From IMG/VR virus record IMGVR_UViG_3300031775_000018, positions 1 through 31,754 of that record: 31,754 nt of DNA. The stretch is one strand, 5' to 3'. Below are positions 107-6,638 of this stretch, piece by piece; within the stretch, counting starts at the first letter, position 1, and each line of letters opens with the position of its first letter. Made by a program: the position numbers and the translations under genes. This stretch comes from a virus. The notes beneath the pieces are model-generated. The model was not told where the DNA came from, made no database searches, and saw nothing but the letters and a program-made list of their open reading frames with translations.

Positions 107-114
107 TATTTATA
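107..114 (-). promoter_or_regulatory. T4-type late promoter box TATAAATA
   Basis: The minus strand reads TATAAATA from 114 to 107, an exact match to the T4 late promoter recognised by gp55 polymerase. It overlaps the TAA stop of the nucleotidyltransferase gene and lies 26 nt before the ATG at 80, the usual spacing for a late gene. gp55 is encoded in this window. Confidence 0.7.
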
Positions 115-658
115 ACAAATCTCCTAGTTCCTCCATTAACTTCTTGGTGTCAGTGTTGTTTAAAGCTTTTGGTATGCCATCCCTGAATGCTTGATAGTCA
201 CCCACCTCTGCTGCTCTACGCATCTTAGTCCCAGATATAGCAAAGGTATCGCCATCAGCATCACGTTCTCCAGAGGATATGATATCCAAATTACGGAACC
301 TAAACTCCTTACCATTATATCTCTTGATCCATTGCATAGCCTGTACCCTGTCACTACCTACCACAAGCATACAGTCATCATAACCCTGACTCTGTAACTC
401 TTTCAGTACAGCAGTAGGATCTCTAGGACCACTGCGAATCTGCTTTGCTAGATGTGGGAACATCTTCTGTGCCCAGAATAGTTTCCTCTTAGGTGGTAGA
501 GGATCGGTACCCTTCTTCTCTGTCTGTGACAGATAGATGTACCAGTCACAGTTACCTGCTTTCTTTTTAACAGCCTCAAAATTTTCCGCGTGACCCTTGG
601 TGGGTGGTTGAAACCTACCGAAGGTAAAGTATACGCATTTATAATCTACTATTTCCAT
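110..658 (-). CDS. HxGH-type nucleotidyltransferase (NMNAT/cytidylyltransferase-like)
   Basis: This 182-aa protein has the two landmarks of the nucleotidylyltransferase superfamily. Near the N terminus is GRFQPPTKGH (about residues 14-23), the nucleotide-binding HxGH-type loop with T replacing the first H. Near residue 142 is ISGTKMR, the ISxTxxR-type phosphate-binding motif. The family joins a nucleotide to a phosphorylated small molecule and releases pyrophosphate; NMN adenylyltransferase and CTP-dependent enzymes both belong. The substrate cannot be read from sequence. Similar proteins are common in T4-like cyanophages. The start overlaps the end of the ligase-like gene by 10 nt, so the two are probably translated together. 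A late promoter for the next gene overlaps its stop codon. Confidence 0.8.
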   Translation of the reverse strand: MEIVDYKCVYFTFGRFQPPTKGHAENFEAVKKKAGNCDWYIYLSQTEKKGTDPLPPKRKLFWAQKMFPHLAKQIRSGPRDPTAVLKELQSQGYDDCMLVVGSDRVQAMQWIKRYNGKEFRFRNLDIISSGERDADGDTFAISGTKMRRAAEVGDYQAFRDGIPKALNNTDTKKLMEELGDLL

Positions 659-1860
659 TGCTTTGCCAATGTGAAATTAATATAGGAGAACTCAATTCTA
701 TTTACTAACTTGATCATGTCTCCATTGTGATGTAGTACGTAACCCTCTGGTGCTGTTACCTTATAACCTTTATCAGTCATGGCAAAAGTCCTGAACGATT
801 CAAGTTTATCCAAAGCCTCAATGACTATGGTCTTGTTCTCCTGTATCTTCCTGTAAAGATTAAACATAGCATGAAACTCTTGCTCATTATCCTCAAGGTA
901 CTGTAAACCATCAAACAACTGGTTCCTCCTCTCAGTCTGCTTAGGAATACTCTTCATCTTAGATACTTCTTTGTCCATCTTATCTTTATAGAACTTACCA
1001 AGACTCTTCAATGCCATCTTAGGATCAGTAATACTACGTGCTGCTTTAATCTCAGCATTAAAGAACTGCTTAAGATAAGATGCTACATTAAACTTCTTAT
1101 CACCAGTAGTACCCATCTGAGATACCAAAGTGTTTAGAAAATTACCAGCCTTCCGACACATCTGATCAATGATCGTAAGGTTAGCCTCAAACTTCTTAAG
1201 TTGAGTTGTCTCCACTGACACATCCATCAAGGGAGTATCATTAAGAACAACAGCAACATTACTAGACGTTTGAAACTGTGATGTAGGTGCCCCACCCACT
1301 GCTGTCATGGTAGCAAGTTCACTACCATTATATGAAGTATGAAATACTATACCTATCTTAGCATCCCCAATCTTCTTTCCTATAGGATGGTCAACAGGTA
1401 TACCATAGGTGATAGTGTTTGGTCTAAAGGTATATAATCTCTCACCATCAACTCTCTCTTCCTTTACATCCGTGGTGAATAATAGATCTCCTTGTACAAC
1501 AGTAGGTATTTTTAAATCTGGAAAGTATCTTACACAGTATTTTAATTTCTCCACTAAGTCAGGACTACTATCTCCATACATTCTATCAACATCAGCTTCA
1601 TCATAACAAACCTTAGGAGAAGTTTTATTGAACACTGACTTAGTGCCAACAAAAAACATTCCATTGACAGGATGCTTACCACATACTACAGCAGGAGCAC
1701 CGTCCCATTTAGTCTGCATGTATCCACTACTAGGTTGCTTACCTAACATACGAAGCATCTCTTTCATAGCAGAGACAGACGCTATACAACCATCTACTCC
1801 GTAGTTAAGCATCTCATCCTCAATATGTTCGAGGTGTTTTAGTTGAGTAATATTTGCCAT
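649..1860 (-). CDS. Putative covalent nucleotidyltransferase (nucleic-acid-ligase-like fold)
   Basis: This 403-aa protein has no family I can name for certain; it resembles a cyanophage hypothetical family. It carries ligase-superfamily motifs in canonical order: QTKWDGAP with Lys51 (motif I, KxDG, the nucleotidylated lysine), VVQGDLLF (about 121-128), IGIVFHTSY (about 169-177, compatible with motif IIIa), EGYVL (372-376, motif IV) and IKLVN with Lys384 (motif V). A Lys-rich helical region of roughly 180 residues separates IIIa from IV, much longer than in standard ligases. No OB-fold follows motif V, because the protein ends 19 residues later. The start forms TAATG with the stop of the 496-aa gene and its end overlaps the nucleotidyltransferase gene. 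I infer adenylyl or guanylyl transfer to an RNA, DNA or protein substrate; the target is unknown. Confidence 0.6.
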   Translation of the reverse strand: MANITQLKHLEHIEDEMLNYGVDGCIASVSAMKEMLRMLGKQPSSGYMQTKWDGAPAVVCGKHPVNGMFFVGTKSVFNKTSPKVCYDEADVDRMYGDSSPDLVEKLKYCVRYFPDLKIPTVVQGDLLFTTDVKEERVDGERLYTFRPNTITYGIPVDHPIGKKIGDAKIGIVFHTSYNGSELATMTAVGGAPTSQFQTSSNVAVVLNDTPLMDVSVETTQLKKFEANLTIIDQMCRKAGNFLNTLVSQMGTTGDKKFNVASYLKQFFNAEIKAARSITDPKMALKSLGKFYKDKMDKEVSKMKSIPKQTERRNQLFDGLQYLEDNEQEFHAMFNLYRKIQENKTIVIEALDKLESFRTFAMTDKGYKVTAPEGYVLHHNGDMIKLVNRIEFSYINFTLAKQWK

Positions 1861-3350
1861 TATGATGTCTTTAAGAATGGTGCTGAGTCTCTGGACTGAG
1901 AGGTAGCATACAAATGAATCAACTGTGCTGCCTCATTTGCTTGAGCATTAGTACCTGATTCCAATACATCGACCACCTTGAGACCAAGATACTTTGAGAA
2001 GATCCACTGTCCTTTATTTGATGTCTTCAACCTATTACGTTCAACCAAATCAGCATCAATCGTTGGTGCTGTAAACTTAGAAGTCTTCTTAGGATTATTA
2101 CTCCCATCAATAATGTTCTGATGTTTCAAAGATAATTTTAACACCTTACCATTAAGGTTACCATTCCTAGATTCAGATTTGATACCACTAAGATTAGTAT
2201 AAAGAGGTTTGCCATACACCTGATCTATAATCATATCATAAACTCCACCACCAATCTTACCATGCTTTGCTGCTGTACCTATGACTTCACCCTGCCATGT
2301 TAAAGGATCTCCACCAGAAGTATCACGAAACTGTATCTCCAAAGATACACCCTTGGTATACATCCATACATCCAATGCGTCATAGCTCTTAGCATATATC
2401 TTATCGTATGTTGCTACTGGTCTTGCCGAGGTGTAGTTAATTGCAGTTAAGTGTGCTTCATTACCCTCTACTGCTTTCAAAGATATCCCATACAATTGTT
2501 GAGCATCCATACACTCCTTCAACCACCTATTTAATCCAGCAAAGGTACGATGCTGAGTTATATGTTCCTCCTTAAGAGTACACCGACATGCCCATATATC
2601 TGCGGGTGTCCACTTGTTTAAGTTAGCGAAAGGCTTCCTTTTTACACCAGTCTCAGGTTCTATGTGATCACCATTAATAACCTTAAACTGATCGTCCATC
2701 CATTTAACTAGACCTTCACCTCTATACCAATTATAAGCATTCTTCTCTCCAAACTCTTCGTACAATGCATTAGCAGTCTTAGCACATGAATCTATCCAGT
2801 CAGGTAGGTCTTCCAGATGTTGCTTTATATCACTTAACTTACTCTTTGTGAACACACGATCTTTAACTCTATTAAACTGCCTATCAGATGGCATACCTTC
2901 ACCACCCTCTGTCTCTAATGACTTCTTCATACTAAACCTAACAGCACAGAACCATGCTGCGGCACTCTCTTCCAAAGCTGTATTAGCACTACCACCACCT
3001 GAACCAGAACTACCACCACCAAAATCAGATGTCTTCATTATCTTGGTCAAAGCAATTTCTTCAGTATCCCCATCCTTGATTAACTTAAAAGGTTTCTTTC
3101 CCTTCGTCTTCAATGCTTCTTTAAGTGCTATATGTTGTGGTTCATCACTACCAACAACGTCAGATGCTGCTCTAAGTAAGTCCTCTATTCCATCTTGATT
3201 ATATTGTATAGCATACTTACCACCCACTACATCTATAGGAGTTCCCTTTTCTATGACATGAAGAAGTACACCAGCCCTTGACTTGTAAGGATACTTACTT
3301 AATTTATTTTCTTTAGAGATATCAACATATCCTAGTTTGCCAGCTGCCAT
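1860..3350 (-). CDS. Unknown 496-aa protein, possible PD-(D/E)XK-type nuclease
   Basis: Function is not recognised. Residues 100-107 lead into DFGGGSSGSGGGS (109-121), a Gly/Ser linker, which is followed by ALEESAAAWF (125-134). A second conserved-looking block has KWTPADIW (246-253) and then YGISLKAVEG (287-296). The order Glu (127/128), Pro-x-Asp (Asp251) and Ser-Leu-Lys (Lys292) fits the E...D...(E/S)xK layout of PD-(D/E)XK nucleases, but this is by-eye inference. No signal peptide or membrane segment is seen. The gene is joined by TAATG overlaps to an oxygenase gene upstream and the ligase-like gene downstream, suggesting coupled translation and perhaps a shared job. A virion structural role is the main alternative. 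Confidence 0.5.
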   Translation of the reverse strand: MAAGKLGYVDISKENKLSKYPYKSRAGVLLHVIEKGTPIDVVGGKYAIQYNQDGIEDLLRAASDVVGSDEPQHIALKEALKTKGKKPFKLIKDGDTEEIALTKIMKTSDFGGGSSGSGGGSANTALEESAAAWFCAVRFSMKKSLETEGGEGMPSDRQFNRVKDRVFTKSKLSDIKQHLEDLPDWIDSCAKTANALYEEFGEKNAYNWYRGEGLVKWMDDQFKVINGDHIEPETGVKRKPFANLNKWTPADIWACRCTLKEEHITQHRTFAGLNRWLKECMDAQQLYGISLKAVEGNEAHLTAINYTSARPVATYDKIYAKSYDALDVWMYTKGVSLEIQFRDTSGGDPLTWQGEVIGTAAKHGKIGGGVYDMIIDQVYGKPLYTNLSGIKSESRNGNLNGKVLKLSLKHQNIIDGSNNPKKTSKFTAPTIDADLVERNRLKTSNKGQWIFSKYLGLKVVDVLESGTNAQANEAAQLIHLYATSQSRDSAPFLKTS

Positions 3351-3937
3351 TAGAATTGTTTCCAGTACTTCGGATGAGTAAGTCCTCCCTCTCTATTTAG
3401 ATCTGGATTAGTGAGGAGCACATCACCTGCTAAACTCATACGAGGACCAGTATTAAAGGTGTGATGATGTAGTTTACTAGGAAATATAAAGAGATCTCCT
3501 GGCTCTGTTGGTTCAGCCCATACTGTTGTGTTATTAAATGTCTTCTCAAGGTCAGCAAATGCCTGAGGGAACCATTCATTAGGTGCGTCTGCCTGGAAAT
3601 GAAGTGGATCCTGTGTCTCCACATAATATATCCATGAGATATGAGCAGGGTCATGACAGTGGTCAGGTACTGACCTCTCTTCATCAGTGACAGCGTACCA
3701 TGTCTTCATAAAATGAACATCATAGAAACAATTCATAGAGTCCATGTACTCTACTATATGATCATTAACCTCACAAAAGAAACTGGCAAGTTGAGGGTCT
3801 TGGTGTACTAACACCTTACCATCTAACTCACCAGTCAATCCTTGATTAAATCTATGATGTTCCCACCTCCTACTAATCCACCTAACATATTCAGGTAAAG
3901 AATGCTTGTAGATAGAGGTTGGAAATATATTAATCAT
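3350..3937 (-). CDS. 2OG-Fe(II) oxygenase-like protein (HxH type)
   Basis: This 195-aa protein begins INIFPTSIYKH, the FPTxIY opening typical of the small 2OG-Fe(II) oxygenase family common in marine T4-like phages. The metal-binding region reads DHCHDPAHISWIYYV (near residues 92-106). The distal part reads GDLFIFPSKLHHHTFN, with a His and the following Arg of GPRMS, expected to supply the third iron ligand and the 2-oxoglutarate contact. The family is a double-stranded beta-helix that hydroxylates amino acids, peptides or nucleic acids; no substrate can be assigned. The ATG overlaps the stop of the upstream 56-aa ORF by 8 nt and its own stop forms TAATG with the 496-aa gene. Confidence 0.7.
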   Translation of the reverse strand: MINIFPTSIYKHSLPEYVRWISRRWEHHRFNQGLTGELDGKVLVHQDPQLASFFCEVNDHIVEYMDSMNCFYDVHFMKTWYAVTDEERSVPDHCHDPAHISWIYYVETQDPLHFQADAPNEWFPQAFADLEKTFNNTTVWAEPTEPGDLFIFPSKLHHHTFNTGPRMSLAGDVLLTNPDLNREGGLTHPKYWKQF

Positions 3938-4547: not shown

Positions 4548-4721
4548 GTGTTCTAACACTTCTTCACGAACCCAGAGGAGTTCATTGAAACAGCCTTGGT
4601 TGTGAGCACAACCTCTAAGTTGACTGTCTGGTCTTTGTACGGACTCGATGAAGATGTCGAGTGCTCTATTCCATTTAGTATCCTGACACTCATGAGTGTC
4701 TACACTACCTTGATCATGCAT
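4521..4721 (-). CDS. Small hypothetical protein (66 aa)
   Basis: Not recognised. It starts MHDQGSVDTHECQDTKWN with the ATG overlapping the helicase stop by one base (TAATG), the coupling used repeatedly in this window. Four cysteines (CQD, GCAH, GCF and context) and several histidines are present but not in an obvious zinc-finger spacing. Its 3' end contains the -10 and -35 of the mazG promoter. It could be a small helicase-operon accessory protein. Confidence 0.55.
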   Translation of the reverse strand: MHDQGSVDTHECQDTKWNRALDIFIESVQRPDSQLRGCAHNQGCFNELLWVREEVLEHLTTMRRKV

Positions 4722-6082
4722 TAGAATGTAAAGTCTCCAAACTTATGTTTCTTTTCCACACTAACTACTTCTTGTCCAGAATCCATAATATTATTCTGGG
4801 CTGATTGTTCTACATCATACAGCCTCATCTTAGATCTGTCAATACCTATCACAAATCTCTTGTTGAGTGTGGGGTCATAGTATCTATTCTTCAACTGCTT
4901 GACCATTATTTGATTCTGGGCTTCCAACTCCTCAGTAGATATGAGAGCGAACATAAGGTCAGCAGTAGCAGGGAGTCCGAAAGACTCTGACGTGTCAGTA
5001 AGGTCAACATCGCTAGAACCGAAACCAGCACGAGTAGTTTGAGTAGCACTGACAATCGGTACATTAAATTCAACGGCAAGTCCTCTCAATTCTTCTGCTA
5101 TACTTTTAACCATAGTGTATGAGTTTACACCTGAGTTACCTCTGAACCTCTGAGAGGCACATATATTCAAGTAGTCTATGAATATTATATCTGGTCTGAA
5201 ATTCTTCTTTAGTGCTAGGTCATTTAAGAGTGCTCGAAAGTGACCCGCATGTGCTGAAGCAGTCGGGTATTCTTTTACTATCAACTTACCTTGTGTCTTC
5301 TGAGAGAGGTTAGTGATCCTCGTCTCAAACATTTGCTTAGGTAACTGTGCTAGTTGTTGGATGTCGATGTTGAGGAGGTTTGCATCAACTCGTTCAGCAA
5401 TGCGCTCTTCCGCCATTTCCATTGTAATGTATAGAACGTTCCGTCCTTGCAACAACACGGAGCTAGCGACGTGGCACATGAATAAGCTTTTTCCGACACC
5501 CGTACCAGCAAGCGCGATGTTAAGAGTCTTATTAGGTAAGCCACCTTTGGTAATTTTGTTAAAAAATTCGATATCGAAGGGTACCTTCGACTCGACCTTG
5601 TGATAACTCTCATACCTTTCTTCATAATCGTCAATGTAATCGTGGCCAATGTGATTATCAAACGACACACCAAGTGCCTCCGATAGGATACTAGGTATCG
5701 CATCGGGGGTTTTCTTTTCATCAGAACCATCGGCAATCTTAATACTCTCCATGAGAGCAAGATAGATCGCACGTTCCTGGCACCACTTTTCAGTAGTGTC
5801 AAGGAGCCAATCTAACTCGGTTGCCTCCTTGTCTAAGGATTGAATGCTTGTAGTAATCTGCTTGAACTGATCATCACTAAGTGTAGAGATTTGCCCTACT
5901 TCAATGGTAAGAGCTTCAACTGTAGGAACAGCAGAATACTTTACGAAGTATTTATTAATGAGATCAAACAGAACTCTGTCTGTAAAGTCCTGGAAATACT
6001 CTTGCTTTACGAATGGAAGTACCCTTCTAGGATACTCCTCCGTCAACAATAAGTTTTTCAGGATCAAACTCTCCACCTTCAT
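4721..6082 (-). CDS. 41: Replicative DNA helicase gp41 (DnaB family)
   Basis: This 453-aa protein is the T4 gp41-type hexameric helicase that unwinds DNA 5'-3' ahead of the polymerase and works with primase. The N-terminal domain (1-150) matches the gp41 start pattern ([13 protein letters not shown]). The RecA-like domain has Walker A AGTGVGKS (192-199), TMEMAEERIAERV (the DnaB H1a-like segment), Walker B-like DIIFIDYLNIC and the SATQTTRAGF block. It ends with FGDFTF. Size is close to T4 gp41 (475 aa). The first 56 nt overlap the end of the upstream oxygenase gene in another frame; the N-terminal match to gp41 makes this start secure. Confidence 0.95.
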   Translation of the reverse strand: MKVESLILKNLLLTEEYPRRVLPFVKQEYFQDFTDRVLFDLINKYFVKYSAVPTVEALTIEVGQISTLSDDQFKQITTSIQSLDKEATELDWLLDTTEKWCQERAIYLALMESIKIADGSDEKKTPDAIPSILSEALGVSFDNHIGHDYIDDYEERYESYHKVESKVPFDIEFFNKITKGGLPNKTLNIALAGTGVGKSLFMCHVASSVLLQGRNVLYITMEMAEERIAERVDANLLNIDIQQLAQLPKQMFETRITNLSQKTQGKLIVKEYPTASAHAGHFRALLNDLALKKNFRPDIIFIDYLNICASQRFRGNSGVNSYTMVKSIAEELRGLAVEFNVPIVSATQTTRAGFGSSDVDLTDTSESFGLPATADLMFALISTEELEAQNQIMVKQLKNRYYDPTLNKRFVIGIDRSKMRLYDVEQSAQNNIMDSGQEVVSVEKKHKFGDFTF

Positions 6083-6638
6083 AGACTTCCTCGGTGATCA
6101 AAAAATTAAATGATATAGTAGACCTCAGTTTAGAGGACTTGTTCATGGGAGCAGAGTGCTCTAACCATGCGGGGAAGATAATTAAATCACCTTCAGTTAC
6201 CCAAGGTATTATAGTATTCTGTTCTTCACCTTGGCAAGCCAATAATGTCTCGTTAGGGTGATAGAACTGAGTACCCTTGTGTTCATTGGGATCAAAGTGT
6301 ACATAATATACACCAGACCACTGACCAGGAGCATGTATATGCTTATCCTGCCAGTTGGTACGATCATAACAGTTCATCCAGAGGTCAGTGAGTAAAAGAT
6401 TACCAGGTATTCTTGCCTCATCTTGGAACTCATCAAAGACATGACCAAACTCCTCCATACATTCTACAATAGGAAACATCTTAGTGCCAAATGTAGTAAA
6501 GAGATTGCAGTTCCACCCTTCAGGTGTACTGGTCTCTAGTTTGTGTTCCTCATAATACTGTTCAACCCTCTCCTTAATAGGAGCATGATCTTCTATATGA
6601 TATCTGAATATCTTAGTAGGAAATATATCAACCTTCAC
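6027..6638 (-). CDS. 2OG-Fe(II) oxygenase-like protein between uvsX and 41
   Basis: The 203-aa product has the family opening [11 protein letters not shown], the iron-binding region [18 protein letters not shown], and the distal block [30 protein letters not shown] with the third His and the 2OG-binding Arg. I start it at a GTG at 6638, because a GGAGGT Shine-Dalgarno lies 5 nt upstream and this places FPTxIF at the usual distance. A GTG at 6665 would add nine residues. The start overlaps the uvsX stop by 11 nt. The 3' end runs 56 nt into gene 41, an unusually long overlap. Substrate unknown. Confidence 0.75.

Follow-up and report, generated by a model that had tools for sequence, protein, structure and literature searches.

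The 31,754-nucleotide stretch of viral DNA analyzed here in its entirety (virus record IMGVR_UViG_3300031775_000018; hereafter the window) stems from a T4-like marine phage of the Kyanoviridae type and encompasses, on the minus strand, a T4-like replication and head cluster, at whose 3' end lie three coupled genes for proteins of 496, 403, and 182 amino acids (aa). The 403-aa protein is a member of Pfam family DUF6267 (PF19782; E 8.6e-126), to which Pfam assigns no function, and its conserved residues and predicted structure indicate that this family most likely represents a previously unnamed group of lysine-nucleotidylating ligases that possesses a helical insertion and lacks an OB domain. 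While the chemistry of the superfamily is already known, the placement of DUF6267 among the ligases, for which we draw on sequence motifs and a structure model, is the new part; no description of the family as a ligase was found in the literature searched, a selection short of most subscription papers. For the three genes together, we see about an even chance that they act within the phage replication apparatus as a module that processes and seals nucleic-acid ends, with DUF6267 as a divergent polynucleotide ligase.

Conserved Residues and Predicted Fold of DUF6267

The features of the DUF6267 gene in the window are as follows.

649-1860, minus strand: 403-aa DUF6267 protein, predicted lysine-nucleotidylating ligase-type enzyme (PF19782 match and structure model)
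1702-1710, minus strand: codons of Lys51-Trp-Asp53 in KWDG, motif I, with Lys51 as the predicted nucleotidylated residue
1639-1641, minus strand: codon of Lys74 (GTKS)
1486-1488, minus strand: codon of Asp125 in QGDLL, motif III-like
796-1209, minus strand: helical insertion between motifs III and IV (approximate; residues ~218-355)
745-747, minus strand: codon of Glu372 in EGYV, motif IV
709-711, minus strand: codon of Lys384 in IKLVN, motif V

We counted residue conservation over 207 DUF6267 loci, which were not dereplicated, and aligned 15 diverse members as well as 81 sequences comprising the window protein and those of viral contigs. The residues that a covalent nucleotidyltransferase should possess are among the invariant ones, and motif I (K51xD53G54), Lys74, motif III (QGD125), motif IV (E372GxV), and motif V (K384) follow one another in the expected order. 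Within motif I, Lys51 is found in 204 of 205 aligned loci (the lone exception, L206, is a partial match), Asp53 in 205/205, and Gly54 in 204/205; Lys74 and Asp125 are both present in all of the loci (207/207), and Glu372, Gly373, Val375, and Lys384 each in 202 of 202 aligned loci. An N-terminal HxEHxED segment is almost as constant as the catalytic residues, and the motif set is retained in the copy of a Vibrio strabovirus, whose identity is about 27%.

The AlphaFold model of DUF6267, computed from the 81 sequences, has a predicted local distance difference test score (pLDDT) of 87.9 and a predicted template modeling score of 0.81. In this model, Lys51 closes strand 47-51, Asp125 lies on strand 121-128, Glu372 stands just ahead of strand 373-378, and Lys384 is located on strand 381-386, with helices 218-351 forming an insert of about 130 residues between motifs III and IV; this insert is far shorter in the cyanophage relatives L086-L088. 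Comparison with known structures by VIA-align gave the Naegleria gruberi RNA ligase NgrRnl (6vt3) as the top match (Z 8.3; 183 residues, 3.6 Å), with T4 Rnl2 at Z 7.2 and T4 Rnl1 at Z 6.7. Among the 50 matches listed, 44 are ligases or ligase-holding complexes (Z 8.3 to 5.5), and in the ranking of these matches seven RNA ligases come first, followed mostly by DNA ligases.

The initial annotation had called this protein ligase-like from KWDG (Lys51), EGYVL (Glu372), and IKLVN (Lys384), and had singled out ISGTKMR in the 182-aa protein; all of these segments are present. It had proposed the predicted fold and the conservation of Lys51, Glu372, and Lys384 as tests, and both came out in its favor, since the model aligns best to polynucleotide ligases and the three residues are conserved at the frequencies given above.

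The Ligase Missing From Marine T4-Like Phages

According to a 2010 review, the T4-like phages of cyanobacteria have the replisome of T4 but not its DNA ligase; neither the g30 ligase nor, the RNase H of S-PM2 aside, rnh was found in cyanomyoviruses, and the choice between distant homologs and a true absence of the ligase was left open, with true absence deemed likelier since enzymes of the host can substitute (PMC2984593). We surveyed 21 phage or viral records with hidden Markov models; 16 of them encode DUF6267, and three of these carriers come from IMG/VR and are possibly incomplete. The models detected none of PF01068, PF09414, and PF09511 in 15 of the 16 carriers, and PF01653 was absent from all 16. 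Each of the five non-carriers (T4, Cr30, phiM12, KVP40, and PBECO4) possesses PF01068, and the contrast between DUF6267 and other ligases gives p 0.0003 in a Fisher test that is not corrected for phylogeny. In 15 of the 16 carriers DUF6267 is the sole ligase-type enzyme that we could detect, which makes it the best candidate to take the place of gp30, the T4 DNA ligase that marine T4-like phages lack.

The Upstream Nuclease-Like Protein and Its Exchangeable Counterparts

The gene preceding that of DUF6267 has the following features.

1860-3350, minus strand: 496-aa protein of the phrog_1462 family (E 1.2e-66), putative PD-(D/E)xK-like nuclease
2598-2600, minus strand: codon of Asp251 (PAD-IW), putative metal-binding Asp
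2475-2483, minus strand: codons of Ser290-Leu-Lys292 (GISLK), putative SxK half of the motif

A Pfam scan assigned no family to the 496-aa protein. In 48 aligned sequences of its family, Trp247, Pro249, Asp251, and Ser290-Leu-Lys292 are invariant, and Glu128, Gln340, and Arg342 are almost so; counted per locus, Asp251 is found in 78/78, Ser290 in 79/79, and Lys292 in 80/80 aligned loci, for a motif that was picked after inspection. These residues recall the motif pattern of the PD-(D/E)xK superfamily. The structure model is confident (pLDDT 89.6) and found no fold match in the PDB (best VIA-align Z 3.2; best Foldseek E 1.4), a listing that does not exclude a restriction-endonuclease-like core.

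The 496-aa family occurs in 72 of the 162 loci with at least 1700 nt of upstream DNA. Among the loci devoid of it, 109 yielded an upstream open reading frame (ORF), and these ORFs fall into 27 groups unrelated by BLAST (39, 13, 9, 9, and 4 members, five groups of 3, three of 2, and 14 singletons). A conserved D...[SE]xK signature is present in 7 of the 10 upstream groups with at least three members, compared with 7 of 27 control groups (p 0.020), and 80 of the 109 loci lie in signature-positive groups; when directly adjacent clusters are counted, the signature is found in 7/8 (p 0.003). The pattern was picked after looking at the data and tested afterwards, so that these p values serve as a guide only. 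The permitted spacing was 80 columns in the upstream set and 60 in the control set, with the shortest D-to-S distances of the upstream set lying within 60, and the singletons L095, L136, L195, and L089 were judged by eye for a nuclease signature. Two of the negative groups are non-adjacent and represent 2-oxoglutarate (2OG)-oxygenase-like and MazG-like genes; the third, L141, escaped the automatic test, although two of its three members show KADLEL...FELK. Several other upstream groups, mainly more than 300 nt away, are likewise unrelated genes (2OG oxygenase, MazG, and others). One of the upstream replacements matches PDDEXK_5 weakly (E 0.028).

The suggestion in the initial annotation that the first gene may encode a nuclease thus gained support at the level of motifs, both from the invariant Asp251 and Ser290-x-Lys292 and from the recurrence of the signature in unrelated families at the same position. 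We consider the 496-aa protein to be probably a nuclease. Our reading of these loci is that of a ligase-like and transferase pair that stays constant beside an often exchanged, putatively nucleolytic neighbor.

The Downstream Nucleotidyltransferase

The third gene of the set carries the following features.

110-658, minus strand: 182-aa (H/T)xGH nucleotidyltransferase, NMNAT-like
590-601, minus strand: TKGH codons, (H/T)xGH motif
218-238, minus strand: ISGTKMR codons

Judged by its motifs and domain matches (PF01467, E 1.5e-6, 28.9 bits against a cut-off of 21; phrog_3041, E 3.2e-56), the 182-aa protein is an (H/T)xGH (HIGH-type, PF01467) nucleotidyltransferase whose nearest relatives are NMNAT enzymes. 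The initial annotation was right about the class of the enzyme and not about a literal HxGH, as the window has TKGH; of 170 loci, 157 have T at the first position of this motif, 12 have H, and one has S. His23 is present in 170/170 loci and Arg147 of ISGTKMR in 164/164 aligned loci. Curated NMNAT models match weakly and below their cut-offs (TIGR00482, 14.7 vs. 112.45 bits). This enzyme probably makes a dinucleotide such as NAD+.

Several relatives, though not the window's own proteins, begin with leaders such as MKKFSAFLKEA or MRFRQFIIEA (L087:5905-7056, L088:5890-7047, L169:390-1478, L084:3872-4957 and 4950-6197, and L090:4977-6200). These are reminiscent of the T4 capsid-targeting leader. 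In a near-identical contig (L002:6781-7683), the gene that follows the transferase encodes 300 aa, starts with MKSFSDF, and by eye resembles longer transferases in their C-terminal part. The window stops before the counterpart of this gene; in S-SZBM1, the gene in that position (139) is listed in the virion table (PMC9146016).

Related cyanophage proteins called NMNAT or cytidylyltransferase are reported in virions of S-SCSM1, where the name NMNAT is used (PMC9602691), S-CREM2 (PMC10665884, Table 3), and S-SZBM1 (PMC9146016, Table 1); the first two papers also allow for carry-over through purification. We put aside the packaging of the whole trio into virions: the S-SZBM1 virion table lists the transferase (140) and its downstream neighbor (139), and neither DUF6267 (141) nor the gene preceding it (142) (PMC9146016, Table 1 and genome map).

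Gene Coupling and Genomic Context

The three genes proved to be real, and their translation is coupled. Their ORFs run on the minus strand from 3350 to 1860, 1860 to 649, and 658 to 110; inspection of the DNA verified that TAATG at 1860 joins the first two and that the second and third overlap by 10 nt (649-658). These junctions had been recognized in the initial annotation, and the coupled run proved to be longer than described there, with a second TAATG at 3350 that ties in a 2OG-Fe(II) oxygenase-like gene lying upstream. The set lies far beyond chance because of the PF19782 match, the PF01467 match above its cut-off, and the recurrence of the DUF6267-nucleotidyltransferase pair in other loci: the transferase is present in 127 of the 145 DUF6267 loci with at least 1500 nt of downstream DNA (from 204 loci, not dereplicated).

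Two neighboring genes of the window are relevant here.

3350-3937, minus strand: 195-aa 2OG-Fe(II) oxygenase-like gene upstream of the trio (PF13759, E 4.7e-11; TAATG junction)
4721-6082, minus strand: gp41-like DnaB helicase of the replication cluster (phrog_19, E 5.7e-133)

The cluster comprises genes for the major head protein, a UvsW-type helicase, a gp46-like SbcC subunit, the clamp loader, DNA polymerase (the gp43 homolog), UvsX, the gp41 helicase, and MazG, with the trio at the 3' end of the cluster beside the gp43, UvsX, and gp41 homologs. The nearest named relatives are Prochlorococcus and Synechococcus cyanophages; in P-HM1 the counterpart of the 403-aa protein is 69% identical and the gene order is the same. 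The trio follows gp41 in P-HM1, as does DUF6267 in S-PM2 and HTVC008M. Plain counts from Synechococcus-phage records, which are not matched sets, are 371 for DUF6267, 374 for the nucleotidyltransferase, and 376 for gp41. In EniLVp02, a Vibrio phage of the Straboviridae, a nuclease-like gene, DUF6267, and the transferase are situated between the gp41-like helicase and the primase; the transferase homolog (L089:6026-6913) is annotated as "DNA helicase" in the public record.

DUF6267 and the transferase are both covered by phrog_455, and they are fused into single ORFs of 591 aa in L113 and L120. A 591-aa S-PM2 protein named for its cytidyltransferase domain (UniProt A0A0M6VVW4) aligns to the DUF6267 model with a template modeling score of 0.93. 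In the S-PM2 genome (NC_006820, 103025-104804; L230:2526-4305), a frameshift breaks the fused DUF6267-transferase gene, and the annotated "cytidyltransferase" begins inside DUF6267. In P-SSM2 (L231:3179-3991) and S-SSM7 (L086:4986-5951), DUF6267 stands alone and retains KxDG. Fifteen loci encode an AAA_33/zeta-type P-loop kinase close to DUF6267 and the transferase; it shares one frame with the transferase in L157 (L157:7174-9912) and L191, and another case is found at L232:5063-5722. This kinase may be a polynucleotide kinase or a nicotinamide riboside kinase.

We also considered a bacterial origin of DUF6267 and put it aside: the 37 loci from GTDB genomes come mostly from metagenome-assembled bins, and 14 named control genomes contain no PF19782. 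Most of these 37 loci are presumably phage contigs in those bins.

Proposed Function and Alternative Explanations

In the proposed end-processing and sealing module, Lys51 of DUF6267 would take AMP from ATP or NAD+ and pass it to a 5'-phosphate end, whereupon the nick would be sealed, with Glu372 and Lys384 serving as the residues of motifs IV and V. The trimming of damaged ends, flaps, or primers would fall to the upstream PD-(D/E)xK-like nuclease (the 496-aa protein here, other families elsewhere), and the NMNAT-like enzyme encoded downstream would provide NAD+ or restore it. The individual parts of this proposal differ in strength: DUF6267 very probably has a covalent-nucleotidyltransferase fold with an intact catalytic set, it is reasonably likely to seal nucleic acid, and that phage DNA is its main target is somewhat doubtful. 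The roles listed in the initial annotation (repair of nucleic-acid ends, tagging of a protein or RNA, or work on NAD-type cofactors) are thereby narrowed and not settled.

A number of findings weigh against this proposal. The best VIA-align Z, near 8, is moderate and inside the range about which the tool warns. Foldseek searches of the PDB with the DUF6267 model gave no row below E 0.06, with unrelated proteins in the top rows and LigA adenylation domains matched weakly at E ~1; in the BFVD database, the rows below E 0.001 hold no named ligase, and the named rows are mostly phage proteins of the DUF6267 or transferase type. Alignment of DUF6267 by hhalign to a five-sequence T4 Rnl2 alignment gave probabilities of 0.3% and 0.1%, remained empty after removal of the helical insert, and was equally empty for the 496-aa family used as a control. 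PDB sequence searches with the single protein and with a 15-sequence profile found no match, scanning the window protein and the 81 aligned members against Pfam revealed no ligase family, and PF01068, PF09414, and PF01653 are not among the Pfam matches of the window protein up to E 1. Since these sequence routes found nothing, the ligase homology of DUF6267 rests on motif order, conservation, and the predicted fold. Past motif V, the model contains no OB domain or motif VI region, with helix 388-397 as the only element there. The anti-correlation with other ligases follows one clade to which most carriers belong, so that the contrast is not independent evidence, and EniLVp02 contains PF01068, PF09414, and PF09511 in addition to DUF6267, which therefore cannot be the sole ligase in that phage. 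DUF6267 is located apart from the replication cluster in P-SSM2 and S-SSM7, and hypervariable nucleases would be odd for a housekeeping step. Finally, models of T4-type RNase H match in 6 of the 16 carriers; this corrects the 2010 picture (PMC2984593) and makes it less likely that the nuclease takes over from RNase H, and we put aside the 496-aa protein as a stand-in for that enzyme.

DUF6267 might instead be a repair-type RNA ligase that rejoins tRNA or other RNAs after cleavage by host defense nucleases; in those loci that encode the P-loop kinase, this enzyme would heal 5' ends, in the manner of T4 Pnkp and Rnl1. The top seven structural alignments are to RNA ligases, some loci have the kinase close to DUF6267 and the transferase, and the Rnl1 and Rnl2 families are likewise absent from 15 of the 16 carriers. 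We nevertheless regard this explanation as unlikely, given that DUF6267 lies in the replication cluster, that a nuclease-like partner is unexpected for RNA repair, that the kinase occurs in only 15 of the loci scanned, and that EniLVp02 retains both RNA ligase families beside DUF6267.

Rather improbable, too, is a conflict module in which the swappable nuclease would attack the DNA of the host or of rival phages, the ligase-like protein would protect or repair phage DNA, and the NMNAT-like protein would counter NAD+-depleting defenses. Upstream of a constant DUF6267 and transferase, no fewer than eight nuclease-like families without relation to one another are found (seven clusters in addition to the 496-aa family), NMNAT-like proteins have been reported in virions as cited above, and phage NAD+ synthesis sets are known (PMC7824862). 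No part of the set carries a defense or toxin annotation, however, the nuclease role is predicted, and DUF6267 occurs on its own in P-SSM2 and S-SSM7.

A more specific form of the sealing module is an NAD+-recycling DNA ligase system, in which DUF6267 would take AMP from NAD+ and release NMN, the NMNAT-like partner would remake NAD+ with ATP, and the exchangeable PD-(D/E)xK nuclease would prepare the ends. This cycle is attractive because an NMNAT-like gene adjoins DUF6267, to which it is even fused in L113, L120, and S-PM2 A0A0M6VVW4, and we still judge it quite unlikely. It is very unlikely that DUF6267, instead of joining nucleic acids, transfers a nucleotide to a protein or small molecule or acts in RNA capping: covalent nucleotidyltransferases do include capping enzymes, and neither an OB domain nor a ligase profile match is found in DUF6267, but ligases and not capping enzymes are favored among the structural matches listed, where absence from the listing excludes nothing.

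If DUF6267 is indeed a ligase, a Pfam family of unknown function would gain a chemistry, the question of the missing cyanomyovirus ligase would become directly testable with one purified protein, and studies of phage replication and of conflict between phage and host would gain a target in a gene set whose ligase-like part is constant and whose nuclease-like parts are interchangeable. T4-like myoviruses occur throughout the ocean (PMC3037559). NAD+ recycling, if true, would represent the step missing from these marine T4-like phages, the sealing of Okazaki fragments.

Comparison With Known Systems

The closest parallels to DUF6267 are T4 Rnl2 and the Naegleria gruberi RNA ligase, with which it has in common the order of motifs I, III, IV, and V, the predicted fold, and, by eye, an SLEN/HLEH-type N-terminal segment ahead of motif I. 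It differs from them in that a large helical insert separates motifs III and IV and no domain follows motif V, and our comparisons detected no profile similarity to Rnl2. With the T4 DNA ligase gp30 (PF01068) it would share a role in a T4-like replisome, as well as covalent-nucleotidyltransferase motifs; it differs from gp30 in lacking the OB domain/motif VI region and a PF01068 match, and EniLVp02 carries both proteins. The weak Foldseek rows to the adenylation domain and the adjoining NMNAT-like gene recall LigA (PF01653), whose family is matched in 0 of the 21 records surveyed. The 182-aa protein belongs among the phage NMNAT/cytidylyltransferase-like proteins of cyanophages (phrog_3041, PF01467) and, unlike its longer relatives there, is short, without a leader and without the extra C-terminal part. 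The 496-aa protein and its replacements resemble the PD-(D/E)xK superfamily in a conserved D...SxK (or ExK) and an upstream Glu; they depart from it in that the 496-aa model has no fold match and in that the 38 residues between Asp251 and Ser290 presumably exceed the spacing of a classical PD-(D/E)xK core.

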